64,000 nucleotides of DNA from Prosopocoilus inquinatus. Lineage: Eukaryota > Arthropoda > Insecta > Coleoptera > Lucanidae. Below are positions 1 through 46,332 of the stretch, one piece after another. The DNA is taken from contig CM069876.1 in NCBI GenBank assembly GCA_036172665.1, forward strand, positions 51,057,001 through 51,121,000, written 5' to 3'. Below the pieces are notes generated by a model, which was given only the letters and a program-made list of their open reading frames with translations, searched no databases and was not told the origin of the DNA. The position numbers and the translations under genes were made by a program. Position 1 is the stretch's first letter. Each line of letters starts with the position of its first letter.

Positions 1-198
1 GTGTGTAATAAGTTATGCCTCTTCAATTGCTGAAGCAGTCGGCCTTTATAATCGCAAAACTCACAACTGAACGGTTTCTCGCCGGTATGTATTAAAATGT
101 GTTGTCGCAAGGTTCTGTGGGTTGAAAGTTGACAATCGCATATTCGGCATTTGGATTTTTCTTTATTGGCGGTTTTGGCCTTGGAAATCCGTTTACAC
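1..198 (-). CDS. ZF1: zinc-finger exon, 5' part only, cut by the window edge
   Basis: The exon opens at a TTTTTGTTACAG|G acceptor at position 198 and is open to the window edge. After a basic stretch of about 20 residues it encodes a CRICD-type leader finger ending HILIH, a canonical TGEKPF linker, and a second C2H2 finger (CEFC to HNLLH). The rest lies outside the window. The leader finger places it with ZF2, ZF3, ZF4 and ZF20. The product is presumably a nuclear DNA-binding protein. There is no ATG between the acceptor and the first finger, so translation must begin in an upstream exon. Whether the array stays intact beyond the edge is unknown. Confidence 0.75.
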
Positions 199-568
199 CT
201 GTAACAAAAATTATTTTGTTTGAAAACGATTTTTCAATTAGGCGTACAAAATGATCAAGATGGTAATTCAGTACCTACTGTTCAAGAAGCTCAATAAAAA
301 AAAACAAATTGCAATCTCAACATCGGACAACAGTTTCAGTGATTCCGATGAAAAAGAGTCATCTTGGGCTATCCATGCCCAGAACATCTCAGATGCAAAA
401 AATAGTAATTCATCATCAGAATCTTTTTTTTTTTAGAAAGAAAACTGCTCCTATAATAAGTCAAAAATTTTTCGCTTGAATATTTGCAACGTAAGTAAAA
501 AAAAACACACAAAAAACAAAAAATGTCTTTATTTAATTTAATGGGCAATCCAAATTTGACATCATATT

Positions 569-1058
569 GTACAGGGTTACAACTAATTAAAGGGCCACCC
601 ACTGTGGGGTCTCGTAAACTACATGTAAGAGATACAAAGATGGTTAAATTAGAGAGAAGTTGCGCTATCTTGAGGTCTAAAATAATATACAGAAAAAAAT
701 CTTTTCCATTTTCATTCGTTTCTGAAATATCTTCAAAAAAGCGTGGTGTGCATACCCAAGATGACGTCCGTAAGAAAAGAGACAGTTGACAATCGTATCT
801 GCGAAACTGTCAATCCTAACCTATTTCTTCGAATTCTATTAGATTGTTCATCGAATTTAACAAAAAAAAAAAAAAATCGAATCTGATAATTCTATTTTAG
901 TAATAAGCAAAATATTCCAGATTGAGAAAATAGAAAAGTTTTTTCTTTTTTTAATATTTTGGTAGGCTCTAAAAATAGCGTAATTTAACCGTCGTTGCGT
1001 CCCTTATAGTTTACGAGATCCCCATGTTGGGCCTTTTAATTAGTTGTAACCCTGTATA
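569..1058. mobile_element. MITE-like inverted-repeat element, about 490 bp
   Basis: Bases 569-621 reappear in inverted orientation at 1009-1058 with a few mismatches (TACAGGGTTACAACTAATTA at the outer end). The inside is AT-rich with no transposase-like frame. This is the structure of a non-autonomous terminal-inverted-repeat element. It fills most of the gap between ZF1 and ZF2. Confidence 0.6.
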
Positions 1059-1242
1059 GGGTGTGCCGTTCGAAATAAAAAATGTTGCATCCAGTACCAC
1101 AGCTGTGATTCGTCGAGTTTAGATGAAAATAATTTTATGGTGTAGACTTCTAAAATTTTAAACAGAAACTTTTTCTTGTAACTTCCGTAATTAATCGAGA
1201 TAATACCGCCCGAGCACGCACTATTGGGACACCCTATATATG
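1054..1242. mobile_element. Short element bounded by TATAGGGTGT / ACACCCTATA
   Basis: The right end of the preceding element runs straight into TATAGGGTGTGCC, and ACACCCTATATA follows about 180 bp later in inverted orientation. The match is short (about 10 bp), so this is a weaker call than its neighbour, but the ends resemble the other TACAGGGTG elements in the window. Confidence 0.35.
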
Positions 1243-1316
1243 CAGATAGTTTCTTTATATCGGCTTGCGCATAATCCCACCTCTATTTATAATACTACAC
1301 TTTTCACCACCTTTCT

Positions 1317-2190
1317 TCACTGATGTTTTAGCTTGTGACTATTTAATCGATCACGCCGTCGGCATTTATAATCGCAAAGATCACAACCGAACGGCTTTTC
1401 GTCGGTGTGTTTTAGCTTGTGACGTTTCAAACTTACGACCTGCCGGCATTTATAATCGCAGCGATCACAACTGAACGGCTTCTCGTTGGTGTGTGTTAAC
1501 ACATGGCGTTCTAAATGTTCCGGCCGTGGAGCGTTATAATCGCAAAGGTCACAACTGAACCGCTTCTCGTTGGTGTGTCTTAACTTGTGCCGTTTCAAAC
1601 TTACGAACTGTCGGCATTTATAATCGCAGAGATCACAACTGAACGGCTTCTCGTCGGTGTGCGTTAACATGTGACGTTCTAAATGTCCGAGCCGTAGCGC
1701 GTTATAATCGCAGAGACTACAACCGAACGGCTTTTCGTTGGTGTGCGTTAGCTTATGCCGTTTGACATCTCCGAGCCGCAGAGATTTATAACCGCAAAGC
1801 TCACAGCTGAACGGCTTCTCGTCGGCGTGTTTTAGCTTGTGATATTTCAAACTCACGATTTGCCGGCATTTATAATCGCAGAGGTCACAGTTGAACGGTT
1901 TCTCGTTGGTGTGCGTTAACTTGTGCCGTTTCAGGTGCGCGAGCCGTAGAGAATTGTAATCGCAAAGGTCACAACTGAACAACTTCTCGTCGGTGTGCGT
2001 TAGCTTATGCAATTTCAAATCTCCGCGCTTTCGGCACTTATAATCGCAGAGGTCGCAGCTGAACGGTTTCTCGCCGGTGTGTATTAAAATATGCCGTCGC
2101 AAATTTGCGCCGCTCGTAAGATGATGATCGCATATTCGGCATTTGAATTTTTTTTTCTTGACAGTCTTGACTTTGGAAGTCCGTGTACAC
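1317..2190 (-). CDS. ZF2: 10-finger C2H2 exon, about 290 aa
   Basis: The acceptor is CTTTGTTTCAG|G at 2190 and the stop TGA is at 1317-1319. A CRICD leader finger is followed by nine fingers of about 28 residues. CDYKC-type fingers are interspersed with CDYN/CGYKS-type fingers, which suggests growth by duplication of two-finger units. Linkers are mostly HT[DN]EKPF; only the first is HTGEKPF. The last finger (RRRDRLNSH) is nearly identical to the last fingers of ZF4 and ZF20. All Cys and His ligands are present. Role: probably sequence-specific DNA binding in the nucleus; the target cannot be read. No in-frame ATG precedes the fingers after the acceptor. Confidence 0.85.
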
Positions 2191-2297
2191 CTGAAACAAA
2201 GAGTTCATTATCACTATTTTTTAATATAGTTACAAATATTTACGTACAGCCTACGCTACAGGAAAATTTTTAAATGGTTCAATTTAAAAACAGGCAA

Positions 2298-3316: not shown

Positions 3317-4346
3317 TCACTTATGTCTTAATTTGTGACTATTTAATTGCCATTGCCATCGGCTTTTATAATCGCAAACATCACAACTGAACGGCTTCTC
3401 GTTGGTGTGCGTTAACCTATGCAACTTCAAACTTCGTAGCTCTCGGCATTTATAATCGCAAAGATCACAACCGAACGGCTTCTCGTCGGTGTGTCTTAAC
3501 TTATGCCGCTTCAAGTGTGCGAACTGTAGAGTGTTGTAATCGCAAAGATCGCAACTGAACGGCTTTTCGTTGGTGTGTGTTAGCTTGTGCCGTTTCAGAC
3601 TTCCGAGCTCCCGGCATTTATAATCGCAAAGGTCACAACTGAACGGCTTCTCGTTGGTGTGCGTTAACTTATGCCGTTTCAAATTTGAGAGCTGCAGAGC
3701 GTTGTACTCGCAAAGATCGCAACTGAACGGCTTTCCATCGGTGTGCGTTAACTTATGCCGTTTCAAACTTTCGGGCTTTCTGCACTTAAAATCGCAAAGA
3801 CCACAACTGAACGGCTTATCGTTGATGTGCGTTGACCTGTGCAGTTTGAAGCTTCGGACCTCTCGGCACTTATAATCGCAAAGATCACAAGTGAACGGCT
3901 TCTCGTTGGTGTGTGTTAACTTGTGCTGCTTCAAATTTCTGATCTGTACGCATTTATAATCGCAAAGATCACAGCTGAACGGCTTTTCTTTGGTGTGCGT
4001 TAGCTTATGCCGTTTCAGGCTTACACGTTCACGGCATTTATAATCGCACAAATCACAACTAAACGGCTTCTCGTCGGTGTGTGTTAATTTTTGCTGTTTC
4101 AAATATTCGAGCCATACAGAGTTATAACCGCTAAGATCACAACCGAACGGCTTTCCATCGGTGTGCGTTAACTTATGCCGTTTCAAACTTTCGGGCTTCC
4201 TGCATTTAAAATCGCAAAGATCACAGCTGAACGGTTTCTCGCCGGTATGTATTAAAATGTGTCGTCGTAAATGTGCGTGACTCGTAAGTTGATGATCACA
4301 TATTCGGCATATGAATTTTTCTTTGGCCTTGGAAATCGATTGACAC
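3317..4346 (-). CDS. ZF3: 12-unit C2H2 exon, one finger dead, about 342 aa
   Basis: The acceptor is CTTTGTTTCAG|G at 4346 and the stop is at 3317. It has the CRICD leader finger plus eleven further units. Unit 3 (CDLSGYNSVWLEYLKQQ) has lost its second Cys (to Ser) and its first His (to Gln), so it should not bind zinc. Units 2 and 7 are almost identical (both CRKPESLKRHKLTHTDGKPF), and units 2-3 align with 7-8, so an internal block duplication came before the decay of unit 3. The last unit carries Trp residues in the helix (RWQWQLNSH). Linkers are HT[DNK]EKPF or HTDGKPF. Confidence 0.85.
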
Positions 4347-4943: not shown

Positions 4944-5565
4944 TCACTTATGTTTTAACTTGTGACTATTTAATCGATCACGCCGTCGGCATTTATAATC
5001 GCAATAATTACAACTGAACGGCTTCTCGTCGGTGTGCGTTAATTTATGCTGCTTCAAACTTCCGAGCTGTCGGCATTTATAATCGCAGAGATCACAACTG
5101 ATCAACTTTTCGCCGGTGTGTGTTAACTTATGCCGCTTCAAATTTCCGAACTGTCGGCATTTATAATCGCAAAAATCACACCCGAACGGCATTTCGTCGG
5201 TGTGTGTTAACTTGTGTCGCTTCAAATCTCTGAGGCGTAGAGATTTATAACTGCAGAGATCACAACCGAACGGCATCTCGTTGGTATGCGTTAGCCGATG
5301 CTTTTTCAGATCTCCTAGCCGCAGAGCGTTGTAATCGCAAAGATCGCATCCGAATGGTTTCTCGTTGGTGTGTTTCAGCTTGTGCTGTTTCAGACTTTCG
5401 AGTTGTCGGCATTTATAGTCGCAAAAATCGCAGCTGAACGGTTTCTCGCCGGTATGTAATAAAATATGCTGCAGCAAATTTCGGCGACTTGTCAATTGAT
5501 AATCACATATTCGGCATTTGAATTCCTGTTTATTTGCAGTTTTGACTTTGGAAACCCTTTTACAC
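4944..5565 (-). CDS. ZF4: 7-finger C2H2 exon, about 206 aa
   Basis: The acceptor is ATTTGTTTCAG|G at 5565 and the stop TAA is at 4944. The leader finger is CRICD ending HILLH. Six fingers follow, all with complete C2H2 ligands. Fingers 3 and 4 are of the YNALRL/YKSLRL helix type and the others of the CDYKCRQ type. Two linkers are HTGEKPF/HTGEKLI and the others HTDE or HTNE, some ending MPF instead of KPF. The last finger is nearly the same as that of ZF2. It is the shortest complete member of the leader-finger group in this part of the cluster. Confidence 0.85.
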
Positions 5566-6330: not shown

Positions 6331-7288
6331 TCAGTTTTTTTTGTCCGCAAGTGTACATTCGATTTGCTTGTCAGTATGTTTCTGCGAGTGCGCTTTCAAG
6401 TCTTCAGCTCGTCGACATTTATAATCGCAAGCGTTGCATTTCAACGGCTTATCGCCAGTGTGTCTCCACGTATGCTTTTTAAACGACGTCTCGTAGTTGC
6501 ACTTAAAATCGCACTGGTCGCATTCGAACAGCTTATCCGCGTTGTGCGTCAGCACGTGCTTATTAAAAGAATACGGCCACCGAAATTCGCGGCCGCAAAC
6601 TTTACACCTGTACGGTTTATCGTCGGTGTGCGTCAACATGTGCGCCTTCAAACTGTAAGACCGCTTGAACGTGCAGTCGCAGACGGCGCACTTCAACAGT
6701 TTCTCGTCGGTGTGTATCAACATGTGGCTTTTTAAATTGCCAGCGCGGCCAAACTCGCTGGCGCAAATCGCGCACCTGAACGGCTTCGAGCCGCTGTGGT
6801 TCGACATGTGCTCCTTCAAGTTGGCAGAACGGAGGCACGCGTAATCGCAGAGCTTGCACTTGAACGGTTTCTCGCCGCTGTGCCTCAACCCGTGCAGTTT
6901 CAAATGCGCGGGCAGCCTACAGCTGTAATCGCAGATGTTGCACTTGAACGGTTTCTCATCGGTGTGTATCATCGCGTGCCTCTTTAAAGTTGAGGCGTGT
7001 TTGCTCGCGTAATCGCAGTGCCCGCATTTAAACGGCTTCTCGTCGGTGTGCATCTTCATGTGGCTCTTCAGGTGTTGAAAATGGCGGCCTTGATAACCAC
7101 ACGTGGTGCATTTAAACGGCTTATCGGCGCTGTGCGTCAACATGTGCACTTTCAATCTTGAAGAATGGGCGCATTTGTAATCGCAGTTGTTGCACTCGTG
7201 TCGCTTCTCGTCGGTCTTCGTCGTCGCGTGCGATTTACGTTTTCCTGGTTTCAATCCACCTAAAGGTTTATTCACCTCGCGAGGTGTC
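6331..7288 (-). CDS. ZF5: 10-finger C2H2 exon, about 318 aa
   Basis: The acceptor is GTTTTGTTTTAG|G at 7288 (TAG instead of CAG) and the stop TGA is at 6331. There is no CRICD leader; a basic segment (KPGKRKSH) comes before ten complete fingers. Fingers 8 and 9 (REFRWPYSFNKH, then CDQCDFKCNY) match fingers 9 and 10 of ZF6, so the two exons arose by tandem duplication. The gap to the ZF6 stop is 166 bp and contains no minus-strand ATG at all. A GTAAGT at 7388-7393 in that gap is donor-like, but the only ATG near it (within the end of ZF6) would splice in the wrong phase. Confidence 0.85.
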
Positions 7289-7453: not shown

Positions 7454-8657
7454 TTATAATTTCTCATGTGATAACATGTGTTTTTTTAAGGACCTAGCCT
7501 GTAAGCATTTATACTCGCAGTGACTGCATTCGAGCGGCTTCCCATCGGCATGTCTCTGCATGTGCACCCTCAGCTGTTCCGGTCGCCTGCACTTATAATC
7601 GCAAACGTTACATTTATGCGGCTTTTCGTCGGTGTGAATCAGCATATGCGTCCTCAACTGTCTGCCCTCCCTGCATCCGTAATCGCAAACACCACACCTG
7701 TACGGCTTCTCGCCGGTGTGTATCCACCCATGCCTTTTCAAGCCTCCGGCGTAATTGCACTTGAAGTCGCACTGGTCGCACTCGAACGGCTTATCGGCGG
7801 TGTGCGTCAGCACGTGCCTGTTAAAACTCTGCGGCCACCTAAACGCACAGCCGCAGATTTCGCACTTGTACGGTTTTTCGTCGGTGTGAATCACCATATG
7901 CGCTTTTAAAGTGTACGACTGGTCGCACCTGTAGTCGCAGACCTCGCACTTGAACGGTTTCTCGACGTCGTGCGTCTTCACGTGCCGCTTTAAGATTTCA
8001 GCGCTGCCATACTCGTAACCACAAATCGCACATTTCAACGGCTCGATGTTAGTGACGGGGGCGGCGTGATTCGCCGCGTGCGCCTTCAAATACTCGGAGC
8101 GGATGGTCGCGTAATCGCAGAGATCGCACTTGAACGGTTTCTCGCCGCTGTGCGTCATCAAGTGTCGCTTCAAGTTCGTGACGTTGCCGCACTTGTAATC
8201 GCAAGTCGAGCACTTAAACGGCTTACAGCCGTTGTGGTTCGACATGTGTATCTTCAGACTGGACGAACGGCTGGAGGCGTAATCGCATAGGTTGCATTTG
8301 AACGGTTTTTCGCCGGTGTGTCTCGCCTCGTGTCGCTTCAAGTTGCCGGCGTTGCAGCATTTGTAGTCGCAGGTCGAGCATTTGAACGGCTTGTCGTCGC
8401 GGTGCGTCAGCGCGTGACTTTTTAAGTACAGGGGGCGCTTGCATGCGTAATCGCAGAAGTCGCACTTGTAGGGTTTCTCGTGGCTGTGCACCGACACGTG
8501 CAGTTTTAAATTGCCCGCGTAATTGCTCGCGTAATCGCATTGGGGGCATCTAAATGGTTTCTCGCCCTCGTGTGTCTCCACATGCGACAACTCGGATGAC
8601 GTGAATAACAGAAAATGTTGCTGATTACCGTCATCTGTGGATTCACGTCCGTAATTC
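7454..8657 (-). CDS. ZF6: 13-finger C2H2 exon, about 400 aa
   Basis: The acceptor is CTTTTGTTTCAG|G at 8657 and the stop TAA is at 7454-7456. An acidic, polar N-terminal segment of about 30 residues precedes 13 complete fingers, joint highest in the window with ZF21. Between fingers 6 and 7 the linker is expanded and contains APVTNIEP, so the protein probably binds as a 6-finger block and a 7-finger block. AATAAA overlaps the stop codon, giving this exon its own poly(A) signal, as expected for a terminal exon. Finger 6 (ATIRSEYLKAH) resembles finger 5 of ZF12. Confidence 0.87.
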
Positions 8658-9432: not shown

Positions 9433-10950
9433 TTACGTCGCTTTTTTCTTGTCTCTGTGAACCTTCATGTGATTTTTTAAATTCCAAGCAATGCGGCACC
9501 GATAATCGCAAATCGTGCACTTGTACGGCTTCTCATCGGAGTGCGTCAACATGTGCGTCTTTAGGCACGTAAGATATCTGCTTCTGTAATCGCACACCTC
9601 GCATTGAAAGGGCCTTCCGATAGCGTGCTTCATCACGTGGGTTTTCAAATTTGAAATGTGGCTGCACTGAAAATTGCAAACCGTACATTTGAACAGTTTC
9701 TTGTCGCTGTGGACGAGCGCGTGCGCTTTCAGAGCGCTGGGACGTTTACATCGGAAATCGCAGAGGTTACACTTGAATGGTTTTTCGTCGCTGTGCGTCA
9801 CCATGTGACTTTTTAAATCCGCAGATAACTTAAACGCCCGCTCGCAGACAGTGCATTTAAATGGTCTCTCGTCGCTGTGCTTCGTTATCACGTGACGGCG
9901 TAAGCTTCCGGCAAGGCCAGTTTGGTAATTGCAGATCGTACACCTGAACGGTTTTTCACCGCTATGTCGGACCGTGTGCCGTTTTAAGCTTACAGCGTGT
10001 TTAGTTTCGAAATCGCACACGCGGCACTTGAATAGTTTTCCGTCTTCGCCTCCAAGTTTACGTGATGAAGAACTGCGATCTTCGGCATCTGCAGGCGATC
10101 CACCGGCGATATTCCTGTAACAAAATGCCACGTTAATTTCGAAGAAGTAAATTCGAAAAATTTTGTTTAATTAAAAAAAAAGAATTGGGGAGAAGTAGAG
10201 AATGCGTAATATTCTACAACTATAGCTTACATAAGCTAATCGCAAGCTTAATGCTTCCGTCAATCAAAACACGTGAAAGTTACTAAAACATTTTAATTTT
10301 TAGCTGATTGTGAGTTATCGATTACCTAAGAGTACCGCTTTACAAAACATCCGGTGCAATAGTAAACGAGACGTTTTGGTGGCCGGGCGTTGCTGTTTTG
10401 CGAATTTTTTTTAACTTATTTAACGCGATGCATCAACTTTCTTATGAGTCAAGACGTGTCGCTTCAAGCTCGCCGCGTGCTTGCACCTAAAATCGCACAG
10501 ATCGCAAGTAAACGGCTTTTCGTCACTGTGGACCTTCATGTGACTTCTGTAGTTCCAAGCGCTGCGGCACTGATACTCGCAAACCGCGCACTTGAACGGC
10601 TTTTCGCCGGTGTGCGTCAACATGTGCGACTTGACAGACGCGGAATAGTTGCTTCTGTATTGGCACAGGTTGCATTTGAACGGCCTTTCGTCGGTGTGCG
10701 TCATCACGTGCGTCTTCAGACTTGAAACGTAGCAGCAACGAAAATCACAAATCGTACACTTGAAGAGTTTCTCGCCGCTGTGAATCAGCGCGTGCAGTTT
10801 CAGGGCTTTGGCTCGTTTACATCTGAAATCGCAGAGGCTGCACTTGAACGGTTTCTCGTCGCTGTGGTTTAGCATGTGCCTTTTCAGATTCTGCGATAGC
10901 TTACAGGCGTAATCGCAGAGGTGACACTTGAACGGCTTTTCGTCGTTGTG
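8950..10950. repeat. Segmental duplication, copy 1 (partner 12980-14930)
   Basis: Non-coding sequence, ZF7, the gap and most of ZF8 are repeated at 12980-14930 in the same order and orientation, with scattered mismatches in gaps and in codons. The two copies flank ZF9. The breakpoints given are approximate, taken by eye. Confidence 0.75.
9433..10114 (-). CDS. ZF7: 7-finger C2H2 exon, about 226 aa
   Basis: The acceptor is TTTTGTTACAG|G at 10114 and the stop TAA is at 9433. A polar N-terminus rich in Ser and Gly (GGSPADAEDRSSSS) leads to seven complete fingers. Finger 2 has four residues between the histidines (HVITKH). Linkers are HSDEKPF and variants. It is the paralogue of ZF10 with the same length. 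Several of the substitutions between them fall at helix positions -1, 1, 2 and 3, for example in fingers 1, 2 and 4, so the pair may recognise different DNA. The ATG-like GTGGCA just upstream of the acceptor is not an ATG in either copy. Confidence 0.86.
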
Positions 10951-11188
10951 TATCAACATGTGACGTTTCAGGCCTCCGGACCAGTCGGTCTGATAACTGC
11001 AGATCGTACATCTAAATTGCTTTTCGCCGTTATGCGGGATCCCGTGCGTCACGGTGGTTTCGAGAGCGGCGCGTAGACGGCGATTAAATAGCTTTTCGTC
11101 TTTGTGCACGCACGATGCGAATTTAAATGTCTGTGAGAGATTGCGTTTGGCATCTGCAAATCCAAGGACGATGTGTTTATCACATTTC
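10420..11188 (-). CDS. ZF8: C2H2 exon with 7 intact fingers and a dead first unit, about 255 aa
   Basis: The acceptor is TTTTGTTGCAG|G at 11188 and the stop is at 10420. The first unit (LFNRRLRAALETTVTHGIPH) keeps finger spacing but has lost both cysteines. The same decay is seen in its paralogue ZF11, so it came before their duplication. Seven complete fingers follow, and the last four are nearly identical to those of ZF11. The gap to the ZF9 stop is 271 bp. Its only minus-strand ATG is followed by a stop after two codons, so no local coding first exon is possible there. Confidence 0.85.
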
Positions 11189-11459: not shown

Positions 11460-12342
11460 TTAGTTGGCCATGTGATGTTGCACGTGTTTTTTTAACAGCC
11501 CGACCGTTTCAAATTTGCGATCGCAAATCTTACATTGCAGTGGATTTTCTCTAGTATGTGTCAACATGTGCGTCTTTAAGCTTCCCGTGTATTTGCAACT
11601 GTAATCGCAAACTTCGCACTTGAACGGCCTGTCATCGCAGTGGACCCTCATGTGTCTTCTGAAGTTGCCGGGACTGATGCATCGATACTCGCAAACCGGG
11701 CACTTAAACGGCTTCTCGCCGCTGTGCTTCAACATGTGCCACTTCAACGACACGGAATAGTTGCACGCGTAATCGCACAGGTTGCACTTGAAGGGCTTCG
11801 CGTCGTCGTGCGTCATCATGTGTTTCTTTTTTAGATTTCTGGTGTAGACGCATTCGTAATCGCAAATCGTACACTTGAACGTCTTACCGCCGTCGCCGGT
11901 GTGAGACAACGCGTGCACTTTCAAACCCCCCGATCGCTTACTTCGGAAATCGCAGAGCTCGCACTTAAACGGCTTCTCATCGGTGTGATTCACGCTGTGT
12001 ATTTTCAAAGTCTGGCTGGTCTTGAACGACCTGTCGCAGAGGTCGCACTTGAACGGCCGTTCGTCGCTGTGTATCCTCACGTGACGCTTCAGGCTTCCGG
12101 AAATCAGGGTTTGGTAACCGCAGATCGCGCATTTGAACGGTTTCTCGCCGGTGTGTCGCAGCACGTGATTTCTTATGCTGCCCAGGTGGCCGGTTTTGAA
12201 GTCGCACAGCTTGCATCTGAACAGTTTTCCGTCTTCGTCTTTCGAAAAGCACGACCTGAATTTAAACGGGTGCCTTAAACGCGGCACTGAGAGTTTGCCT
12301 TCGGCGTTTACGAATCCGAGGGCGGTGTCCTTGAGGCGTTTA
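11460..12342 (-). CDS. ZF9: 9-finger C2H2 exon, about 293 aa
   Basis: The acceptor is CCTTGTTGCAG|T at 12342 and the stop is at 11460. The first exon base is T, not G, so the junction codon would be Ser if joined to AG. A basic N-terminal segment precedes nine complete fingers. The linker after finger 4 has two extra glycines (HTGDGGKTF), and finger 5 has one extra residue in the helix (LKKKH). The C-terminus (VQHHMAN) resembles that of ZF13 (LQRHLAN), so the two are related. It sits between the two copies of the duplicated block. Confidence 0.86.
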
Positions 12343-13478: not shown

Positions 13479-14930
13479 TTACTTCGCATGTTTCTTGTCA
13501 CTGTGAACCTTCATGTGATTTTTTAAGTTCCAAGCAATGCGGCACCGATAATCGCAAATCGTGCACTTGAACGGCTTCTCGTCGGAGTGCGTCAACATGT
13601 GCGTCTTTACGCACGTAAGATATCTGCTTCTGTATTCGCACACCTCGCACTGATAGGGCCTTCCGATAGCGTGCGTCATCACGTGGGTCTTCAAACTTGA
13701 AATGTGGCTGCACTGAAAATTGCAAACCGTACATTTGAACAGTTTCTTGTCGCTGTGGACGAGCGCATGCGCTTTCAGACCGCTGGATCGTTTACATTTG
13801 AAATCGCAGAGGTTACACTTGAATGGTTTTTCGTCGCTATGCGTCACCATGTGACTTTTTAAATCCGCTGGTAACTTAAACGTCCGGTGACAAAGAGTGC
13901 ATTTAAACGGTCTCTCGTCGCTGTGCTTCGTAATCACGTGACGGCGCAAGCTTCTGGGAATGCCAGTTTGGTAATTGCAGATCGTACACCTGAACGGTTT
14001 TTCACCGCTATGTTGGACTGCATGCCGTTTTAAGCTTATTGCGTAATTAGTTTCAAAATCGCACACGCGGCACTTAAATAGTCTTCCGTCTTCGCCTCCA
14101 AGTTTACATGATGAAGAACTGCGATCTTCGGCATCTGCAGGCGATCCACCGGCGATGTTCCTGTAACAAAATGCCACGTTAATTTCGAAGAAGTAAATTC
14201 GAAAAATTTTGTTTAATTAAAAAAAAAAGAAAAGAATTGGAAAGTAGAGAATGCGTCATATTCTTCAACTGTGGCTTACATAAGCTAATCGCAAGCTTAA
14301 TGCTTCCGTCAATCAAAACACGTGAAAGTTACTAAAACATTTTAATTTTTAGCTGATTGTGAGTTATCGATTATCTAAGAGTACCGCTTTACAAAACATC
14401 CGGTGAAATAATAAACGAGACGTTTTGGTGGTCGGGCGTTGCTGTTTTGCGGATTTTTTTTTAACTTATTTAACGCGATGCATCAACTTTCTTATGAGTC
14501 GAGACGTGTCGCTTCAAGCTCGCCGCGTGCTTGCACCTAAAATCGCACAGATCGCAAGTAAACGGCTTCTCGTCACTGTGGACCTTCATGTGACTTCTGT
14601 AGTTCCAAGCGCTGCGGCACTGATACTCGCAAACCGCGCACTTGAACGGCTTTTCGCCGGTGTGCGTCAACATGTGCGACTTGACAGACGCGGAATAGTT
14701 GCTTCTGTATTGGCACAGGTTGCATTTGAAAGGCTTCTCGTTAGTGTGCGTCATCACGTGCGTCTTCAAATTTGAACTGTGGCAGCATCGATAATCGCAA
14801 ATCGTACACTTGAACAGTTTCTCGCCGCTGTGAACGAACTCGTGCATTTTCAGAGCTTTGGCTCGTTTACATCGGAAATCGCAGAGGCTGCACTTGAACG
14901 GTTTCTCGTCGCTGTGCTTCACCATGTGAT
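12980..14930. repeat. Segmental duplication, copy 2 (partner 8950-10950)
   Basis: This copy covers the non-coding block, ZF10, the gap and most of ZF11. Its distance from copy 1 is about 4.03 kb throughout. Ends were estimated by eye. Confidence 0.75.
13479..14160 (-). CDS. ZF10: 7-finger C2H2 exon, about 226 aa, paralogue of ZF7
   Basis: The acceptor is TTTTGTTACAG|G at 14160 and the stop is at 13479. It has the same finger number, length and N-terminal segment as ZF7. Finger 7 is identical, while fingers 1-4 differ at residues expected to touch DNA (for example GLAGS versus GIPRS in finger 2). Finger 2 keeps the HVITKH spacing. The gap to the next exon (ZF11 stop) is 310 bp. A GTAAGC donor-like site in it lacks a preceding open ATG in the right phase. 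Confidence 0.86.
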
Positions 14931-15331
14931 CTTTTAAAGATCCGGGCAACTTAAACGCGCAGTCGCACAGAGTGCATTTAAACGGCCTTTCGTCGCTGTG
15001 CTTCACCATGTGCGCTTTTAAATAACAGGATAACTTAAACGCGCAGTCGCATAGAGCGCATTTAAACGGCCTTGCGTCGCTGTGCTTCGCCATGTGACGT
15101 TGCAGGCTCAGGGAAATGTCAGTTTCGTAAGCGCAAGCCGTACACTTAAACGGTTTTTCACCGATGTGCGGGAGCGCGTGCTTTTTTATGCTTACTGGGT
15201 GATTAGTTTTTAAATCGCGTAGGCGGCGATTAAATAGTTTTTCGTCGTCGCCTTTATGCACGCGCGATTCAAATTTAGACGACGGATTGCGACGATTGCG
15301 TTCAGCATCTTCAAATCCATAGGCACATTTC
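14470..15331 (-). CDS. ZF11: C2H2 exon with 8 intact fingers and a dead first unit, about 286 aa
   Basis: The acceptor is TTTTGTTGCAG|G at 15331 and the stop is at 14470. It is the paralogue of ZF8 but has one more finger: units 3 and 4 (CALCDCAFKL and CTLCDCAFKL) are a fresh tandem copy of each other. The first unit (LFNRRLRDLKTNHPVS) lacks its cysteines as in ZF8. The last four fingers match ZF8 almost exactly, down to the terminal KKVDASR. The 5' gap holds a CTGGGCCCA element but no convincing coding first exon. Confidence 0.86.
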
Positions 15332-20800: not shown

Positions 20801-20888
20801 CTAAATAAAAATCTTTGTAAAGTAGGAAGCGTCTTGCCAATCTAGAAATAAGATTAAGCAGTCCGAAATATCCCTTGAAGTTCCAATC
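20801..20888 (-). CDS. Short finger-less terminal exon candidate, 28 aa
   Basis: The acceptor is GATATTGTTTCAG|G at 20888. In phase 2 the frame runs 28 codons to TAG at 20801. It is rich in Leu, Ile and Phe, without cysteine pairs. Its stop lies just 38 bp upstream of the ZF14 acceptor, so the two acceptors compete at close range. It contains no GT donor that would let it act as an internal exon. Support is the acceptor and phase only. Confidence 0.3.
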
Positions 20889-26452: not shown

Positions 26453-26675
26453 CTGAAATGAAATAAATCTATTAAAATGTCAGTCACTCGGTTCGACTGA
26501 ATATTAAAAAAATGATGAAACTGAAACAAGACATGATTGACCTTGACCGAAACAGCCAGCCTTAAACAAACAAAATGCTTTACGGTGTTCTCTTTATTTA
26601 GTTCTTTAAGTGCGACTTGTAAAAATAAATTACAAACTCGGTTAGGTTAAACAAACCAACTTGTTCTTTATTTTA

Positions 26676-32251: not shown

Positions 32252-32795
32252 TCACTTCGCGTGTTTTAACTTGTGACCGTTTAATTGATCACGCCGCCGG
32301 CATTTATAATCGCAAATGTCACAACCGAACGGCTTCTCGTCGGTGTGCATTAGCTTATGCCGCTTCAAGTGATGCAGCTGGAGGAATTTGTAATCGCAAG
32401 TGTCACAACTGAACGGCTTTTTTTCGTCGGTGTGTTTTAACTTGTGACGTTTCAGACTTACGAGTTGTCGGCACTTATAATCGCAAAGATCGCAACTGAA
32501 CGGTTTCTCGTCGGTGTGCGTTAACTTGTGCCGTTTCAAGTGTCCGAGCCATAGAGAGTTATAATCGCAGAGGTCACAACTGAACGGCTTCGCGCTGGTG
32601 TGCGTCAACTTATGCAGTTTCAAACTCGTGCGCTCGCGGCATTTGTAATCGCAGAAATCACAACTGAACGGTTTCTCGCCGGTGTGTATTAAAATGTGCA
32701 TTCGCAAATTTCGGCGAGTTGTAAGCTGACAATCACATATTCGGCATTTGAATTTTCCTTCACTTGCAGTTTTGAAGATGGAAATGCTTTCACAC
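32252..32795 (-). CDS. ZF20: 6-finger C2H2 exon, about 180 aa
   Basis: The acceptor is CTTTGTTTCAG|G at 32795 and the stop is at 32252. It belongs by sequence to the ZF1-4 group: an N-terminus of the CESISIFK type, a CRICD leader finger ending HILIH, CDYKCRE/CDYNSL fingers and the RRRDQLNGH last finger. Yet it lies 26 kb from that group, among members of other types. The linker after finger 4 has an extra Lys (TDEKKPF). All six fingers have complete ligands. It is the shortest complete array in the window. Confidence 0.86.
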
Positions 32796-33646: not shown

Positions 33647-34769
33647 CTACGACTGATGTCTTATCATGTGTCTTGCTAAATCGCCAGGTCGTACATATTT
33701 ATAATCACAGATGGCGCATTTAAGAGGTTTCTCAATGTTATGCACCAGCATGTGTCGCTTTAAGCTTTCGGACCGCTTACACGCGAAACCGCAAGCGCCG
33801 CATTCGAACGGCTTATCGTCGTTGTGCGTCAACAAGTGCGTCTTCAAACTGTTGTGCCGCTTGCTGCGGAACTCGCAGAATTCGCACTTGAACGGCTTAT
33901 CGTCGGTGTGCACCAACATGTGCGCCTTCAAACCGTGCGGATTGTTGAAGACGTGCTCGCAGAGGTGACACTTAAACGGTCGCTCGTCGCTGTGCGTCCT
34001 CATGTGTTGCTTCAAGTTTGCAGCTCGCCGAAACTGACAGCCGCAAGTCAAACATTCAAACGGCTTATCGTCGGTGTGCACCAGCATATGCGCTTTCAAA
34101 GCTCCCGACATATTACATTCGTATTCGCAGAGATTGCACTTAAATAGAGGCTCATTACCACTGTGCACGATGAGATGTTGTTTCAAGTGAATGGCACGGC
34201 GAAACTGCCAACCGCACGTCACGCATGCGAACGGCTTTTCTCCCGTATGCAGCAACATGTGCGTCCTCAGAGATCCGGTGTTGTTGCACCTGTATTCGCA
34301 GGAGTTGCACTTGAACGGTTTCTCACCGCTGTGTATCCTCATGTGTTGCCTCAAGTAGGCGGCTCGGCGGAATCGATTTCCGCAAGTCGCGCACTCGAAC
34401 GGGCTCTCGCCGGTGTGCTTCAGCACGTGCGTTTTCAAGGATCCGGGGTTATTGCAGCCGTAATCGCAGAAGTCGCACTTGAACGGCCTTTCGTCGCTGT
34501 GTATCATCACGTGACGCTTCAGGCTCACGGCGTAGGCGCACTCGTAATCGCAGAGCGCGCACTTGAAGAGCTTCTCGTCGCTGTGTATCACCTTGTGCTG
34601 CTTCAAACCCGCGGAATCTTTGCACCTGTAATCGCAGAGGTCGCACGCGAACGGTTTTTCGTCGGTGTGGCGCAGCTCGTGCCGTTTCAAGCTCCTGCGG
34701 TGGTTACTCGTGAAATTACACAAAGGACATTTAAAGCGTTTTTTGTCTGCGTGATCGCGTGGTGACTTC
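33647..34769 (-). CDS. ZF21: 13-finger C2H2 exon, about 373 aa
   Basis: The acceptor is GTTTTGTTTCAG|G at 34769 and the stop is at 33647. Fingers begin almost at once after a short basic segment (KSPRDHADKKR). From finger 4 on, CDYGCNN/CEYRCNN-type fingers alternate with CGxxFRRAAxL-type fingers through finger 9, which points to duplication of a two-finger unit. Linkers vary among TGESPF, SGEKPF, TDDKPF and SGNEPLF. The last finger (RPGDLARHMIRH) marks the ZF19/21-26 group. An ATG lies just inside the presumed intron (ATGTTTTGTTTCAG). Confidence 0.87.
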
Positions 34770-35730: not shown

Positions 35731-36571
35731 TCACCGATGTCTTCTGTAATGTCTGTTTAAATCCCCTGCTCGCTTAGAGCTATAGTCGCAGGTGTCGCAT
35801 TTAAAAGTACTTTCGCCCTTGTGTATCAACATGTGCTGTTTTAATCTGCCCGATTTATCACACTTATAATCGCAAACGTCGCATTCGAGCGGGTCTTTGT
35901 TGTCGTGCATCGACAAATGTTTCTTCAAATTTTTCTGCCACTTACTACGAAAGTCGCAAAATTCACACTTGAACGGCTTATCGCCCCTGTGCGTAGCCAT
36001 GTGCACTTTCAAAGACTGAAGGTGGCTGTATTCGTAATCACAGAGCTCACACTTGAAAGGCTTCTCGTCGCCGTGTAACCTCATGTGTTCTTTCAGGTAC
36101 TGAGCTCGGCGAAATTCGGAGGGGCACATCGTGCATTTGAAAGGCTTATCGCCGGTGTGTATCAGGACGTGCGTTTTCAAGGACGCCAGGTTGTTGCAAC
36201 CGTAATCGCAGAGGTCGCAGTTGAAAGGTCTCTCGTCGGCGTGTATCAACAGGTGCGCTTTCAGATTGCTCGAACGGACGCTCTCGAAATCGCAAAGCGA
36301 GCATTTAAACGGCTTATCGCTGGTGTGGTTGAACATGTGTTCCCTCAGCCGATTAGGAAGTTTACATTTGTAAGTGCAGAACTTGCATTTAAACGGTTTT
36401 TCGTCGCTGTGGCGCACTTTGTGCCTTTTGACGCTTTGCAGGTAGATGCTCGTGAAATCGCAGCAATCACATTTGAATAATTGCTTCTTGACTCCATCTT
36501 TCGGCGATTTCAGTAAGCTGCACTCGTCTAAATTTCTGACGACGCCGGCGCTAAAATTCTCGTAGTAAATC
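35731..36571 (-). CDS. ZF22: 9-finger C2H2 exon, about 279 aa
   Basis: The acceptor is TGTCTTGTTTCAG|G at 36571 and the stop TGA is at 35731-35733. The N-terminal segment has NLDECSLLKS, like ZF19. Nine fingers follow, all with complete ligands. Finger 1 begins CDCC, with an extra cysteine between the zinc ligands. Finger 5 is CPSEFRRAQYLKEH. The last three fingers (SKWQKNLKKH, DKSGRLKQH, RAGDLNRH) are the shared C-terminal set. Linkers include KGESTF and NKDPLE. Confidence 0.87.
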
Positions 36572-38395: not shown

Positions 38396-38493
38396 GATTA
38401 AACCGCCTGGTGTTTCGATGATTTGAGTATTTCGGATTTTCGTCATCTTGATGAATAATGACTCGGTGGCCTAGTGTGTCATGGCCACCCGAA

Positions 38494-39376
38494 TCATCGA
38501 TGCCTGATCATGTGTTTCTTTAAGTCGTGCGCTCTCCTCGTCGCATAGTCGCAGACGTCACATTTGAAAGACCTTTCGTTATTATGAACCAGCATGTGTT
38601 GCTTCAAACTGGTCGGCTGCTTACACTTAAAATCGCAAACGTCGCATCCGAACGGGCTCTCGTCGTTATGCGACAACAAATGCGACTGCAGATTTTGCCG
38701 CCGCTTACCTCGATAGTCGCAGAACTCGCACTTAAACGGCTTATCGTCCTTGTGTGTCAGCAGGTGCGTTTTCAAATTTCTAGGCCAGTTGGTTTCAAAG
38801 TCGCACAATTCACATTCGAAGAGCTTCTCGCTGGTGTGCGTGAGCTGGTGCGCCGTCAGGGATTGCGAGTGATTGGTTCCGTATTCGCAGAGATCGCACT
38901 TAAACGTCTTCTCCTCGCCGTGTATCCTCATGTGTAGTTTCAAGCTTCCGAGTAGGCGAAAGCGACCGCCGCATATTATACATTGAAAAGGCTTATCGCC
39001 GGTGTGCAGCAGCATGTGCGCTTTCAAAGATTGAGACTTGTTGCATCCGTACTCGCAGAGGTTGCACTTGAACGGCCTTTCGTCGGCATGTATCCTCACG
39101 TGCTCTTTCAAGTTTCCGGCTCGGCGAAATCGATAACCGCACGTCTTACATTTAAAGGGCCTTTCGTCGCTGTGTATCGCTATGTGTCTTTTTAAGTTGC
39201 CGGCGTGGGCAAACTCGTGATTGCAAATCGTGCATTTGAACGGCTTGTCGCTAGGCTTTGAAGGATTCTCGTCGGTACGGCGCACGTCATGTCGATCGTT
39301 AATTATTGTGGTATTGCGTAATGGCTCCTCGTGCTCCGATTCGCCCTCATTTAGACTTTCGCCGCCACTAAACTTC
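38494..39376 (-). CDS. ZF23: 9-finger C2H2 exon, about 293 aa
   Basis: The acceptor is TTTCTGTTTCAG|G at 39376 and the stop is at 38494. A longer acidic N-terminus of about 50 residues (SLNEGESEHEEPL) leads to nine complete fingers. Where its relatives have a CNFTS-type first finger, a finger-free stretch (DRHDVRRTDENP) suggests loss of one unit. Fingers 2 and 4 are of the CGYRFRRAGNLKEH class. The last two fingers (KQPTSLKQH, RRAHDLKKH) match the group's C-terminal set. Confidence 0.87.
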
Positions 39377-39712: not shown

Positions 39713-40481
39713 TCACCAACGATGTCTTCTCGTATGCCTGTCTAAATCCCTGGGTCGCACACACCTGTATTCGCAAACTTCACACTTGAGAGGCTTTTCG
39801 CTGTTGTGTACGAACATGTGCCGCTTCAAGTTCTCGGCGCGCTTACACTTGTAACTGCAGACGTTGCATTCAAACGGGTACTCGTCGGTGTGCGTCGCCA
39901 GATGCGATTTCAAATTCTTCTGCCACTTGCTCTGATAGTCGCACAGTTCGCACTTGAACGGCTTCTCGCCGGTGTGCTTGAGCATGTGCGCCACGAGAGA
40001 TTGCGGAAAATTGCATCCGTACTCGCAGAGGGTGCACTTGAATTTCCTTTCGACGCCGTGTATCCGCATGTGCTGCTTCAAGTACGCGGCTCGGCGGAAG
40101 TGGCAACTGCACGTCGGACATTTGAACGGTTTTTCGTCGGCATGTATCCACATATGCCTTTTCAAGTTTTTCACGCGGACGCACTCGTAATCGCAGGTCG
40201 CGCATTTGTACAGCTTGGCATCGCGGTGACTCGACAGGTGCTCTTGTAGCCTGGCGGGGAATTTACAACTGTAATCGCAGAGGTGACACTTGAACGGTCT
40301 TTCGTCGGTGTGGCACACCTTGTGCCTTTCCAGGCTCCTCCGGTAATCACTCGTGAAATTACACAAATCGCATCTGTATGTTTTTTTACCCCCGTCCTTC
40401 GATAGGCATACGTTTGACGGTTTAAATGAGATGCAATCATCTGTCACTTGTTTACTATTGGGACTAGATTTCTCATTTTTG
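39713..40481 (-). CDS. ZF24: 8-finger C2H2 exon, about 255 aa
   Basis: The acceptor is TTCTTTTCTTTTCAG|C at 40481 and the stop is at 39713. The first exon base is C, so the junction would read Ser with AG. A Ser/Asn/Lys-rich N-terminus precedes eight complete fingers. Finger 1 is the CNFTSDYRRSLERH type shared with ZF21. Finger 4 is CSCHFRRAAYLKQH. The last three (SKWQKNLKSH, KRAENLKRH, RPRDLDRH) match ZF22. The gap to the ZF23 acceptor is 337 bp. Confidence 0.87.
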
Positions 40482-40499
40482 CTGAAAAGAAAAGAAACA

Positions 40500-41040: not shown

Positions 41041-41054
41041 TAAATATTAATATA

Positions 41055-41865
41055 TTACTGATGCGTTCGCGCATGTCTTTTCACATCTCCGGCTCGCGTC
41101 GATTTGTAATCGCAGCTGTCGCATTTGTAAGGCTTTTCGCTGTTGTGTGCCACCATATGCCGTTTCAATGTTCCGGACTGCTTGCACTTATAACCGCAAA
41201 CGTCGCATTCGAACGGCCTATCGTCGTTATGCGTCAACTGATGCGTCCTCAAATTCCTAGGCCACCTGCTCCTGTGATCGCAAAACTCGCACTTGAACGG
41301 CTCGTCGCCGGTGTGCGCAAACATGTGCGCCCTCAGCGACTCGGAATTATTGCAGCCGTACTCGCAGAGGTCGCACTTAAACGGCCTTTCGTCGCTGTGG
41401 ATCCTCAGGTGCTCCTTCAGGTTCCCGGACCGGCGAAATCGACAACCGCACGCCATACATTTGAACGGCTTATCGCCGGTGTGCATCAGCATGTGCTTCG
41501 TCAAGGCCCCCTTGATGTTGCATCGGTATTCGCACAGGTTGCACTTGAACGGCCTTTCGAGGCTGTGCGTCAGCATGTGCGTTTTCATGTTGTTGGATCG
41601 GACGCACTCGTAACCGCAAGTCGCGCATTTAAACGGCTTATCGCCGGTGTGCGTCGCCAGGTGTTCTTTTAAGCTGGTGGGGAGCTTGCATCTGTAATCG
41701 CAGAGGTCGCATTCGAACGGTTTCTCGTCGCTGTGGCGCACCACGTGTCGGCGCAAGCTCCTGCGGTAATTGCTCGCGAAATGACATAAGTGACATCTGA
41801 ATAGCTTTTCACCCCCTACGTCCATTGGCCCTCGTGATTTATACAACCCACAGTCATCATCGTTT
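41055..41865 (-). CDS. ZF25: 9-finger C2H2 exon, about 269 aa
   Basis: The acceptor is TTTTTTAATTTCAG|A at 41865 and the stop is at 41055. A short N-terminal segment (KSRGPMDVGGEKLF) leads to nine complete fingers. Finger 1 is the HFASNYRRSLRRH type. Finger 5 is CGCRFRRSGNLKEH. The last three (SRWPRNLRTH, KQSGTLKRH, TRAGDVKRH) are the shared set. Linkers are of TGDKPF, SLERPF, SDERPF and NDDRPF form. There are no broken ligands. Confidence 0.87.
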
Positions 41866-41869
41866 CTGA

Positions 41870-42600: not shown

Positions 42601-42653
42601 AAAAAATATATATTTATTAAATGACGTAAAGTATACATAATGCGTTAGGTAGA

Positions 42654-43698
42654 TTAACACCGATGTTTTCTCGTCACGTGTCTTCTTAAAACCCCCGCTC
42701 GTACGCACTCGTAATCACAAACGTCGCATTTCAAAAACTTCTCTCTATTATGTAGCAACACATGTCGCTTCAAACTCCCGGACTGTTTGCACTTGAAGTC
42801 ACAGACGTCGCAGGCGAACGGATTTTCGTCGGTATGCGTCAACGCGTGCCTCTTCAAATTCGAACGCCGGTCGCTCTGAAAGTCGCAAAGCTCGCACTTA
42901 AACGGCTTATCGCCGGCGTGCGTGAACATGTGCGCCTTTAATGACCCAGAACTGTTGCATCCGTACTCGCAGAGGTTACACTTGAACGGCCTCTCTTCGC
43001 CGTGTATCTTCATGTGCTGCTTCAGGGTTCCGGCCAGGTGAAATCGATAACCGCAGATCGTACATTTGAACGCCCTATCGTCGGCGTGCTTCAACAAGTG
43101 CGCTTTTAGGGATCCGGAGCTGTTGCACTCGTAATCGCAGAGGTCGCACTTGAACGGCCTTTCGTCGGCGTGTATCCTCATGTGACGCTTTAGGTTTGCG
43201 GCTCGGTTGAATCGGCTGGCGCACGTCGCGCATTTAAACGGCTTGTCGCCGGTGTGCTTCAACATGTGCTCTTTCAAATACTGAGAATTATTGCACGCGT
43301 ATTCGCACACGTTGCACTTGAACGGCCTTTCGCCGCTGTGCGTCCGCCACGTGTGCGCTCTCAAGCCTCTGGCCTGGCGAAACTGACAGCCGCACGTCGC
43401 GCATTGAAACGGCTTTTCGTCGCTGTGCGTCCCCATGTGGATCTTTAAGCTTCTGGCCCGCGCGCACTCGAAATCGCAGAGCGCGCATTTGATCTGCTTA
43501 TCGCCCATGTGTGTCACCGCGTGTTCTCTCAGACTCCTGGGATATTTGTATCTCTCATCGCAGGCGTTGCACTTCAGTGGCTTTTCGTCGGTGTGCTGGT
43601 TTAAATTAGTTTTGCAATCGCATAAGCGCCATTCTAGTCGTTTCTCGCCTTCTTCCTCCGACGGGTGCGGTTCAAGAAAATAATCGACGCGGTGGATC
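42654..43698 (-). CDS. ZF26: 11-finger C2H2 exon with a decayed first unit, about 347 aa
   Basis: The acceptor is ACGTTTCGTTCCAG|G at 43698 and the stop is at 42654. An acidic N-terminus (EPHPSEEEGEK) is followed by a shortened unit (LEWRLCDCKTNLNQHTDEKP) that cannot form a finger, then eleven complete fingers. Finger 3 has an extra residue between histidines (HTWRTH), and so does the last (HVTRKH). Alternating CEYGCN/CDYECN and CGCRF/CASRF fingers show two-finger duplication as in ZF21. It is the rightmost array, nearest to the candidate shared exon. Confidence 0.86.
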
Positions 43699-44225: not shown

Positions 44226-45430
44226 GGAGATGGCGCTTTTAAAATGATTCCTGCCGCACTTGCCGATACATTTTCGATGAAACACCGTAACGGCAGTTAC
44301 TCTCAGTTGTCTCTTTCGATCAAGAGATGGCGCTTTGAATGACAAACACGGTCATTAATTTTAAAAATCTGATGAGAAGGCGCCGAGTAGAAGGTCTAAA
44401 GCCGGGGGTTCCCAACGGGACCGGTATTCGATGACAACTATTTAGCGGTCGCTTAAAAAGATCTATATCTTGTTGATTCTGTTATACGTCTTTATTCTTT
44501 TGTTTTTTGCCCGTTTGGATAGGAGATGGCGCTTTAAATGATTTCTGTCGAAATACTGCTACAACGCCGGTTCCTTTTTAGGCCAAGAGATGGCGCTTTA
44601 CATGATAACTACGGTCATTGCTTAATTAAAATGTTGATGAGAGGACGCTGAGTAGAGGAGGGTCTAATTCAGGGGTCGCCAACTGGATCGACGTACACTT
44701 AAAAAGGCTCGGTGGACCTGTAAGGGTGGTTTGGAGGTTCAAACACTTCCAGTGGGTCGATGAACTATTCAGCGGTCGACTAAAGGCGTCATTTTTTTTT
44801 TGTTTATTCTATTTTACGTCTGTATTATTTTGTTTCCGTTGAGAAAAAATACCTTTTTTTAAATGAAATTCCGAGACAAAACAAAATCGATGAAAAATCC
44901 GTGAACAATGAACAATGAAAATTAGATCTCCTCTTTGGCTAAGAGATGGCGTTCTAAATGATTCTGAATACTGTTACAAAAGTTCCGTTTTGGTCAACAG
45001 ATGGCGCTTTGAATGATTCCCGTCACGCCGCGCCGCCGTGATTTAATTTTGAAATTAAAATCACTGCGAGGGCAGTGTTTGGATAGGAAAGAAATTTCGA
45101 TTAGAATGAAGTACCTACCCACTTGGTCAAGAGATGGCGCTTCGAACGATTCACGTCACGCCACGATCTTGAACTTTGGAATTTAATCTTTATGAAATAA
45201 ATTTCGTTTGAGAAAGTCGAAGTCAGAACGTGTTAGTGTGAAGACGAAGTTATTATAGGAATTAGTAATTAATGCAACGGACAACAGATGGCGTTCTAAA
45301 TGATTACTCTTACGTGCCAGGATTGAAAACGTTGTTTACACAGAGAATATTATAATGACGAAATCGAATTTTTGACGTTCGATTAAATTAGTTTCCGCTT
45401 TGGGGAAACAGATGGCGTTTCAAGCAGTTC
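44226..45430. repeat. Nine dispersed copies of [GC]AGATGGCGYTYT
   Basis: Copies are found near 44227, 44334, 44523, 44587, 44943, 45000, 45131, 45287 and 45410, all in the same orientation, often preceded by GGCTA or GGTCAA and followed by AATGATTC. Between them are unrelated or weakly similar sequences. On the minus strand the core reads AAAGCGCCATCTC. No coding frame is present in 43699-45688. Confidence 0.7.
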
Positions 45431-45688
45431 AGCTAAATGATGTAAGTAAAATATTTTTTTTTATCAATTAATTATTGTTTCAAGTAATTTATTATTCTAA
45501 CATTGCTCATTTTTGAAAGGGTGTAATTAATCACCCTGTATGTGATTTTAAAAAATTTTAAAATCTAAATTTAACTGTACAGGAAGGAAACGGTCGATAA
45601 AAACTCTTTTATCTTCTAGGGTTAGGAGGTCGATGCTTAAAAAAACATTGGGAATCCCTGATCTACTTGTTTAGTGCCCCCTCAATTT

Positions 45689-46114
45689 ATATACAGGGTG
45701 TCCAGGAACTCGAGCGTCGTAATTTCAGAGGTTATGACTCGAACCAATACGATTTAAAAAAAAAAAGTAGCAAAAAAGTAACAAGGTGGCTGTTTTCGAG
45801 AGTGAAATTTCAAAAACTCGCTTACAACGCGAACTAAAATTATGAAAATCGTTGCATCTAAGGCAATTGTTTATTCAATTTTTATATCAGTTCCTCTAAA
45901 ATAAATTTCGTTGTTGCTTTAAAGTTTCGAACACGAAAATAATGTCGGACAGCACAGCCCACAAATGGCCGAATGTTTTTTTTTTACTTTCATTTATTTA
46001 TAATTCCAAAACGGTTGCACATAGGACATCATATTACATAACATTTTTTGAAGGTATTGATCTAAGCTATCGCCTCGTGTAATTATGGCACTCGGGTCCG
46101 GCACACCCTGTATA
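45689..46114. mobile_element. MITE-like element, about 425 bp
   Basis: The left end TATACAGGGTGTCCAGGAAC with TCGAGCGTCGTAATT is matched in inverted orientation at 46079-46114 (AATTATGGCACTCGGGTCCG then GCACACCCTGTATA). A further CACCCTGTATA follows at once (46118-46130), so another copy was probably inserted next to it. Confidence 0.6.
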
Positions 46115-46163
46115 AGCGCACCCTGTATAATGGCGAAACTTGCTGCGGGGCCAAACTAAAACG

Positions 46164-46179
46164 TCAAAACTCGTCGAAC
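46164..46179 (-). CDS. Very short terminal exon candidate (RFDEF, stop)
   Basis: The acceptor CGTTTTGTTTCAG|G at 46179 is identical in its core to those of the arrays. In phase 2 the frame ends after four codons (TTC GAC GAG TTT, then TGA at 46164-46166). It lies 92 bp from the candidate shared exon, the nearest acceptor to it. It might make a short default product or be a leftover of a lost array. Confidence 0.3.
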
Positions 46180-46270
46180 CTGAAACAAAACGTGTAATTG
46201 TCGGAAGTATTTCGGGAAAATCAATTACTTTTTTTTATGTTGCAGTTCATTTTGCATTTATTTCACTTAC

Positions 46271-46332
46271 CTTGAAGATACTTTCATTAGCTTTTCATTA
46301 CTTACCTTCAAGAATTTTCTTGTACGTTCCAT
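46271..46332 (-). CDS. Candidate shared first coding exon of the zinc-finger locus
   Basis: On the minus strand an ATG in a favourable context (TTAAACATGG) at 46332 opens 20 codons plus AG, ending at a consensus donor (AAG|GTAAGTG at 46271). This gives exactly phase 2, the phase needed by all 25 complete arrays, with AG+G = Arg at most junctions. The peptide is basic (ERTRKFLK, then KLMK). An earlier donor (AAG|GTAAGT, exon end 46306) would leave phase 0 and push the arrays out of frame. An in-frame TGA lies upstream. It has no recognisable domain. Its position upstream of every array fits, but a chance match is possible. Confidence 0.42.

Follow-up and report, generated by a model that had tools for sequence, protein, structure and literature searches.

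A cluster of 31 C2H2 zinc-finger array exons in the beetle Prosopocoilus inquinatus: probable alternative 3'-terminal exons of one complex transcription-factor locus

A stretch of 64 kb on contig CM069876.1 (here C8, positions 51057001-51121000) of Prosopocoilus inquinatus (Coleoptera, Lucanidae), referred to below as the window, carries a dense series of C2H2 zinc-finger arrays, which we consider here as candidate 3'-terminal exons of a single transcription-factor locus. A six-frame scan of the window identified 26 arrays in 26 stop-to-stop frames, all on the minus strand, and zero C2H2 arrays on the plus strand. The array at the left window edge was completed from the flank to 10 fingers and is followed there by five further minus-strand arrays, past which no more arrays were found in the 30 kb of flank examined. 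The whole cluster comprises 31 arrays with 285 fingers, 6 to 14 in each, reaches about 12.9 kb to the left of the window, and spans about 57 kb in total. Wider searches covered 649.6 Mb of genome.

Within the window, each array is contained in a single minus-strand exon, given here in window coordinates whose higher number is the assigned acceptor and whose lower number is the end of the stop codon. Thirteen fingers are encoded at 33647..34769 and 7454..8657, twelve at 26939..28046, and eleven at 42654..43698 and 3317..4346. Arrays of ten fingers lie at 18208..19144, 6331..7288, 1317..2190, and 1..198, the last being the one cut by the window edge. Nine fingers are found at 41055..41865, 38494..39376, 35731..36571, 28939..29821, 22697..23549, and 11460..12342, and eight at 39713..40481 and 14470..15331. 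The arrays at 25753..26452, 24266..24947, 19842..20763 (a divergent, GC-rich type), 15644..16331, 13479..14160 (a recent duplicate of 9433-10114), 10420..11188, 9433..10114, and 4944..5565 have seven fingers, and that at 32252..32795 has six.

The length from assigned acceptor to stop was 1 modulo 3 in all 31 exons (26/26 in the window and 5/5 in the left flank). Acceptors were looked for within the open frame, and in four arrays the in-phase acceptor was taken though it was not the best-scoring one. When the AGs within the open frame were ranked with a generic, phase-blind matrix, the in-phase AG came first in 22 of the 26 window arrays, the misses being those with assigned acceptors at 43698, 26452, 24947, and 20763. 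A matrix trained only on the 26 window acceptors recovered the five left-flank acceptors at 14.7-20.5 bits, 5/5 in phase. It also picked out two sites lacking an array, one on the minus strand (12.6 bits) and one on the plus strand (13.1 bits). On the minus strand of the window, this matrix returned 24 sites of at least 13 bits, comprising 21 array acceptors and 3 others; the plus-strand maximum was 11.8 bits. Nine minus-strand and seven plus-strand sites exceeded 12.5 bits in the 200 kb upstream, with a best score of 16.3 bits; sites lacking an array occur there as well. The window acceptors have T at positions -6 and -5 in 26/26, C at -3 in 25, and G at -7 in 22, and the exons begin with G (19 exons), A (5), C (1), or T (1). 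A branch-like word, [CT]T[AG]A[CT], begins 19-25 bases upstream of 14/26 acceptors, a count made without a chance control.

Starts of translation are scarce ahead of the fingers. An in-frame methionine (Met) codon is absent from 29/31 linkers between acceptor and first finger, the two exceptions being the window exons with acceptors at 41865 and 20763. In seven other window arrays the open frame contains an in-frame ATG ahead of the acceptor, which a transcript starting there could use; in 17/26 there is no in-frame ATG anywhere before the fingers. The distance from one stop to the next acceptor falls below 400 bp in 7 of 30 gaps (165-336 bp). The shortest, upstream of the array at 7288, measures 165 bp and contains no ATG at all; next come gaps of 271, 305, 309, 312, and 336 bp. 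In 29/30 gaps no ATG frame, whatever its length, leads to a phase-2 donor of 5 bits or more, and the lone exception scored 5.0; with a looser cut (3 bits, 8 codons), two such frames appeared in the window gaps. A sequence-only reading of the window had described 26 arrays, the 25 complete ones on the minus strand in single exons of this one length class, most of them without an ATG before the fingers, and gaps too small for a promoter and a first exon. All three observations proved correct on recalculation, including its gap figures (166, 271, and about 310 bp, compared with 165, 271, and 305-312 bp here).

A tandem duplication of 2,035 bp with 93% identity is evident within the cluster. The 2-kb duplicate (window 8950-10968 versus 12990-15018) consists of one whole array, the upstream gap of about 305 bp, and part of the next array. 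For six pairs of exons and one partial pair, ratios of nonsynonymous to synonymous substitution rates (dN/dS) lay between 0.17 and 0.34, and in these tested pairs the array exons look to be under purifying selection. The four finger positions that we take to be DNA-contacting are among the most variable, with entropies of 3.06-3.51 bits. Protein searches with the arrays returned C2H2 proteins at 25-46% identity, with no close relative among the best 120 matches of each.

Relatives of the arrays are found elsewhere on the same contig. A search with one array gave 256 matches, and all of those listed (111 of 1913 candidates scored) lie on C8. With rows within 1.6 kb merged, as for all remote counts here, they form at least 93 places on the plus strand (46.76-50.55 Mb) and at least 7 on the minus strand (44.78-45.05 Mb), with 44-59% identity. 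The divergent GC-rich array of the window found at least 48 plus-strand places at 50.49-50.82 Mb (about 31-44% identity; 129 of 2324 candidates scored); C2H2 frames on other contigs match it just as well, so these places may represent another class. Four remote places, all in a 7-kb piece 1.4 Mb away on the opposite strand, were read as intact exons, and 4/4 share the acceptor style, the phase, and the lack of a Met in the linker. Their acceptors score 11.1 to 17.8 bits, two of them (11.1-11.2 bits) under the cut of 12.5 bits used in the flanks, and their first base is other than G in 4/4. The gaps of this piece contain no ATG frame of at least 8 codons with a donor of at least 3 bits in any phase. 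A protein search with this divergent array (19842-20763) found close relatives, at 47-56% identity, in short contigs only. Three of seven aligned relatives (P0240, P0242, and P0243) continue upstream of the conserved start with CFR, IYR, or FFR, which, judging from these protein letters, looks like an acceptor AG with A or G as the next base, at the homologous place and in the same phase.

Upstream of the arrays, on the minus strand between 43.7 and 64 kb, the best donor score after an ATG frame of at least 8 codons belongs to the ATG at 46332 (8.2 bits). This candidate shared 5' leader exon (46271..46332) comprises 20 codons from the ATG (MERTRKFLKVSNEKLMKVSS) and two further bases, followed by GTAAGT. 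Its phase-2 donor after 46271 fits the arrays, and as the exon ends in AG a sense codon results with any first exon base. Neither the DNA of the leader nor its peptide occurs a second time in the genome. The first array-type acceptor past it, 91 bp from the donor, is TTTTGTTTCAG followed by G (46164..46179, 19.8 bits), which leads into a four-codon tail and a stop. Two more array-type acceptors head tails without fingers, one of 28 codons at 20801..20888 (17.5 bits) and one of 40 codons at 19401..19524 (21.1 bits; low end derived from the translation). These three minus-strand sites, at 46179, 20888, and 19524, with scores of 17.5 to 21.1 bits, may correspond to fingerless isoforms, of which lola too has examples, or to decayed arrays.

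Two other genes lie upstream of the cluster. One, on the minus strand, encodes a TLC domain and is presumably TRAM-like; its first donor scores 5.4 bits. The other, on the plus strand, is a phosphofructokinase gene with a Pfam match just below the cut-off. On the phosphofructokinase side, a 77-bp tandem repeat with 16.2 copies and 100% matches occupies window 62756-64000, up to the window edge. No convincing N-terminal domain was detected in the scanned frames upstream and in the gaps; the Pfam gap scans covered three gaps on the minus strand in three frames each, and the plus-strand scans extended to 57 kb, with one frame fewer beyond 51.3 kb. No BTB domain was found in three minus-strand frames at 43.8-58.6 kb and one frame at 58.5-64 kb, and no TTK-type BTB motif in the window plus 200 kb upstream (264 kb), with a pattern that recovered 6/12 BTB control loci. 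Within those 200 kb, the nearest BTB exons lie 77-95 kb beyond the window. Judging from their peptides and one sub-threshold Pfam match, the two nearest look like germ cell-less and ARMC5.

We consider it probable, at roughly 0.7, that the cluster is one complex transcription-factor locus with at least 31 mutually alternative 3'-terminal exons, and an upstream coding donor common to the arrays is strongly implied. Each exon would encode a linker followed by 6-14 C2H2 fingers and would have its own stop. An upstream coding exon ending two bases into a codon would be joined to a single array acceptor per transcript, giving mRNAs with the same N-terminus and different DNA-binding arrays. We infer rather than see that splicing occurs, that one donor would serve all arrays, and that this donor would be the leader at 46332-46271, an unconfirmed candidate to which we give about even odds. 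The sequence-only reading had already proposed alternative 3'-terminal exons, in a locus like lola or mod(mdg4). The present work supports this in so far as the arrays look like 3'-terminal coding exons in need of an upstream coding donor of one phase, a rule that the five arrays outside the window and the four remote ones also follow; identity with lola or mod(mdg4), or a shared BTB part, is not supported. The estimate of about 26 proteins was too low, since the cluster has 31 arrays and C8 carries others of this type.

Several points weigh against this proposal. The evidence consists of sequence data. Being paralogues, the arrays owe their phase and acceptor in part to common descent, and the 31 cases are not independent. 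The 871 codons of window linker are free of stops, which is not independent proof because the acceptors were looked for inside open frames. Five array acceptors (41865, 40481, 26452, 20763, and 12342) scored below 10 bits when left out of the matrix. For the array 25753..26452, the best-matching acceptor lies out of phase at 26520, and the assigned in-phase acceptor at 26452 is weaker, which counts against a perfect phase rule. The exact 14-base acceptor form has 633 genome matches versus 96 for a reversed control (places were listed on contigs C1 and C2 only); being a common strong form in the genome, with a similar form in the lola exons discussed below, the array acceptor is not a private signal. 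Among the other four relatives of the GC-rich array, three start at an internal Met and one, P0238, lacks such a residue. The leader is without a known relative, and the same ATG has an equal 8.2-bit donor in phase 0 after 46306 (9 codons, 35 bp earlier). A phase-2 leader as good or better was present in 0.45% of 2000 resampled stretches of 3.55 kb, by a threshold fixed post hoc, after the leader had been seen, and only ATG-bearing first exons were sought. Finally, the same array type occurs on the opposite strand at 46.7-50.6 Mb. One cis-spliced leader therefore cannot serve all arrays of the type, and if the pattern of the remote piece is general, several local leaders or trans-splicing would be needed.

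This last point leads to the strongest alternative, in which a donor transcript from elsewhere, on either strand, would be joined to array exons with promoters of their own, and the leader at 46332 would be coincidental or serve the cluster only. The spread of the array type over both strands and several Mb, with the same acceptor style and phase in the 4/4 remote exons examined, speaks for it, and mod(mdg4) provides a precedent. In the passages cited here, trans-splicing is described as the sole route to Drosophila mod(mdg4) mRNAs, with some of the acceptors on opposite strands and with own promoters (PMC12692577), and a passage on Aedes aegypti gives donor-acceptor distances of 0.95-1.28 Mb (PMC4667647). 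Against it, a local cis candidate is present and no distant donor was identified, and separate promoters would hardly fit into the gaps of 165-336 bp, though several arrays could share a precursor. We regard trans-splicing as possible but clearly the less likely arrangement. It is somewhat more doubtful still that all C8 arrays of the type, i.e., the 31 and about 100 more at 44.8-50.6 Mb, which together occupy both strands of about 6.3 Mb, and perhaps the 48 or so weaker places, are 3' exons of a single BTB-less system served by one small donor through trans-splicing. If so, its repertoire would be several times larger than that of lola or mod(mdg4).

Alternatively, each array might belong to an ordinary, independent zinc-finger gene that has a promoter and a short coding first exon of its own, and the common phase might have been inherited by duplication. 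The 2,035-bp tandem duplication and the seven window arrays with an in-frame ATG upstream of the acceptor are in line with this, as are the ZF271-like families of Hemiptera, described in the cited passages as genes in tandem clusters (PMC6444547). Against it, 29/30 gaps are without an ATG frame leading to a phase-2 donor of at least 5 bits, seven are very short, and the gaps of the remote piece are empty even at the looser cut. We judge separate genes unlikely. Spliced-leader trans-splicing, or a translation start at a Met codon within the fingers, with a noncoding linker, is very improbable. Many arrays do carry Met codons in the finger region, but the phase is shared across arrays, a leader ending in AT would need an exon starting with G whereas 7/26 window and 4/4 remote exons start otherwise, and Rfam gave no match to known families in the window. 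ZAD-type genes, a common insect C2H2 class, with a missed ZAD exon are the least credible explanation, since none of the 54 ZAD (PF07776) matches in the genome is on C8 (113/113 candidates scored).

If the 31 arrays are indeed alternative exons of one locus, this would be a third insect locus making dozens of DNA-binding proteins from one start, and to our knowledge no earlier such locus with long finger arrays and no BTB domain has been reported. No BTB-less locus of this kind was recognised among the open-access papers listed by the literature searches, as far as titles and the opening parts of abstracts tell. The case would suggest that certain C2H2 families with fingers only, now annotated as sets of separate genes, consist of headless exons belonging to shared loci; gene counts, and models of how such families originate, would change accordingly. 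The locus also offers a direct test of cis- versus trans-splicing.

Dscam and the clustered protocadherins are cell-surface proteins, in contrast to the DNA-binding arrays described here. Both systems are noted for great isoform diversity from a single locus (PMC4835542). The ZF271-like/APEZ proteins of Hemiptera form large lineage-specific families with fingers only, in tandem clusters (PMC6444547), and in these two respects resemble the arrays studied here. However, the cited passages describe them as genes with varied exon structure in clusters of 4-8, whereas here 31 uniform headless exons are packed into about 57 kb.

The closest parallels are mod(mdg4) and lola, named in the passages cited here as the two best documented cases of intergenic trans-splicing in insects (PMC4667647); the N-termini of both contain a BTB domain (PMC4667647, PMC11426971, PMC12692577). 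In Drosophila, mosquitoes, and Lepidoptera, mod(mdg4) is described as joining one N-terminus to about 30 or more alternative 3' exons, which in some species lie on both strands (PMC12692577, PMC4667647). One N-terminus with a comparable number of 3' exons, exons of the type on both strands, and possible trans-splicing would be shared with the locus proposed here, but the 3' exons of mod(mdg4) are mostly FLYWCH exons, its N-terminus is BTB, and it is a different locus. In P. inquinatus, FLYWCH exons and a BTB exon occur together at 48.01-48.04 Mb of contig C4, and this cluster is taken to be mod(mdg4). No FLYWCH match was found at C8:51.04-51.32 Mb among those listed (150 of 302 candidates scored). 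Genome-wide there are at least 150 FLYWCH matches, many in equal 473-codon frames across contigs, which looks like a transposon family.

According to the cited passages, both cis- and trans-splicing connect the shared 5' part of lola with its many alternative 3' exons, most of which contain zinc fingers, and the locus has 20 isoforms in Drosophila, three of them without fingers (PMC1947980). TTK-type BTB domains, called Arthropoda-specific, usually accompany one or two C2H2 fingers (PMC11426971). Matches to the lola finger pair were detected at 38 places, all on the minus strand at C8:34.75-35.19 Mb (150 of 2317 candidates scored). None of the matches listed lies in the array cluster. BTB exons lie at C8:35.22 Mb on the minus strand, placing the lola locus about 16 Mb from the cluster. 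The 38 matches extend over 440 kb and, if each represents an exon, would exceed the 20 isoforms of Drosophila lola. In the four lola exons examined, the acceptor, picked by eye and analogy among several AGs, is T-rich and similar to those of the arrays, and entry fits 2 modulo 3 in 4/4, as opposed to 1 modulo 3 in the arrays, so the phase is not common to the two. The proposed shared 5' part with many 3' exons and the T-rich acceptors are likenesses to lola; the differences are its BTB N-terminus, set against 6-14 fingers and no BTB found here, and the separate place and other phase of the arrays.

Whether the cluster might be lola or mod(mdg4) itself was considered and rejected on the BTB domain, the finger pair, the lola phase, and FLYWCH. 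The absence of any BTB part found sets the cluster apart from both loci. What it does hold are many 3' exons of one phase without a start of their own, the arrangement that characterizes loci with multiple alternative 3' exons. The comparison with lola and mod(mdg4) thus fits not as membership in either locus but as a way of working.

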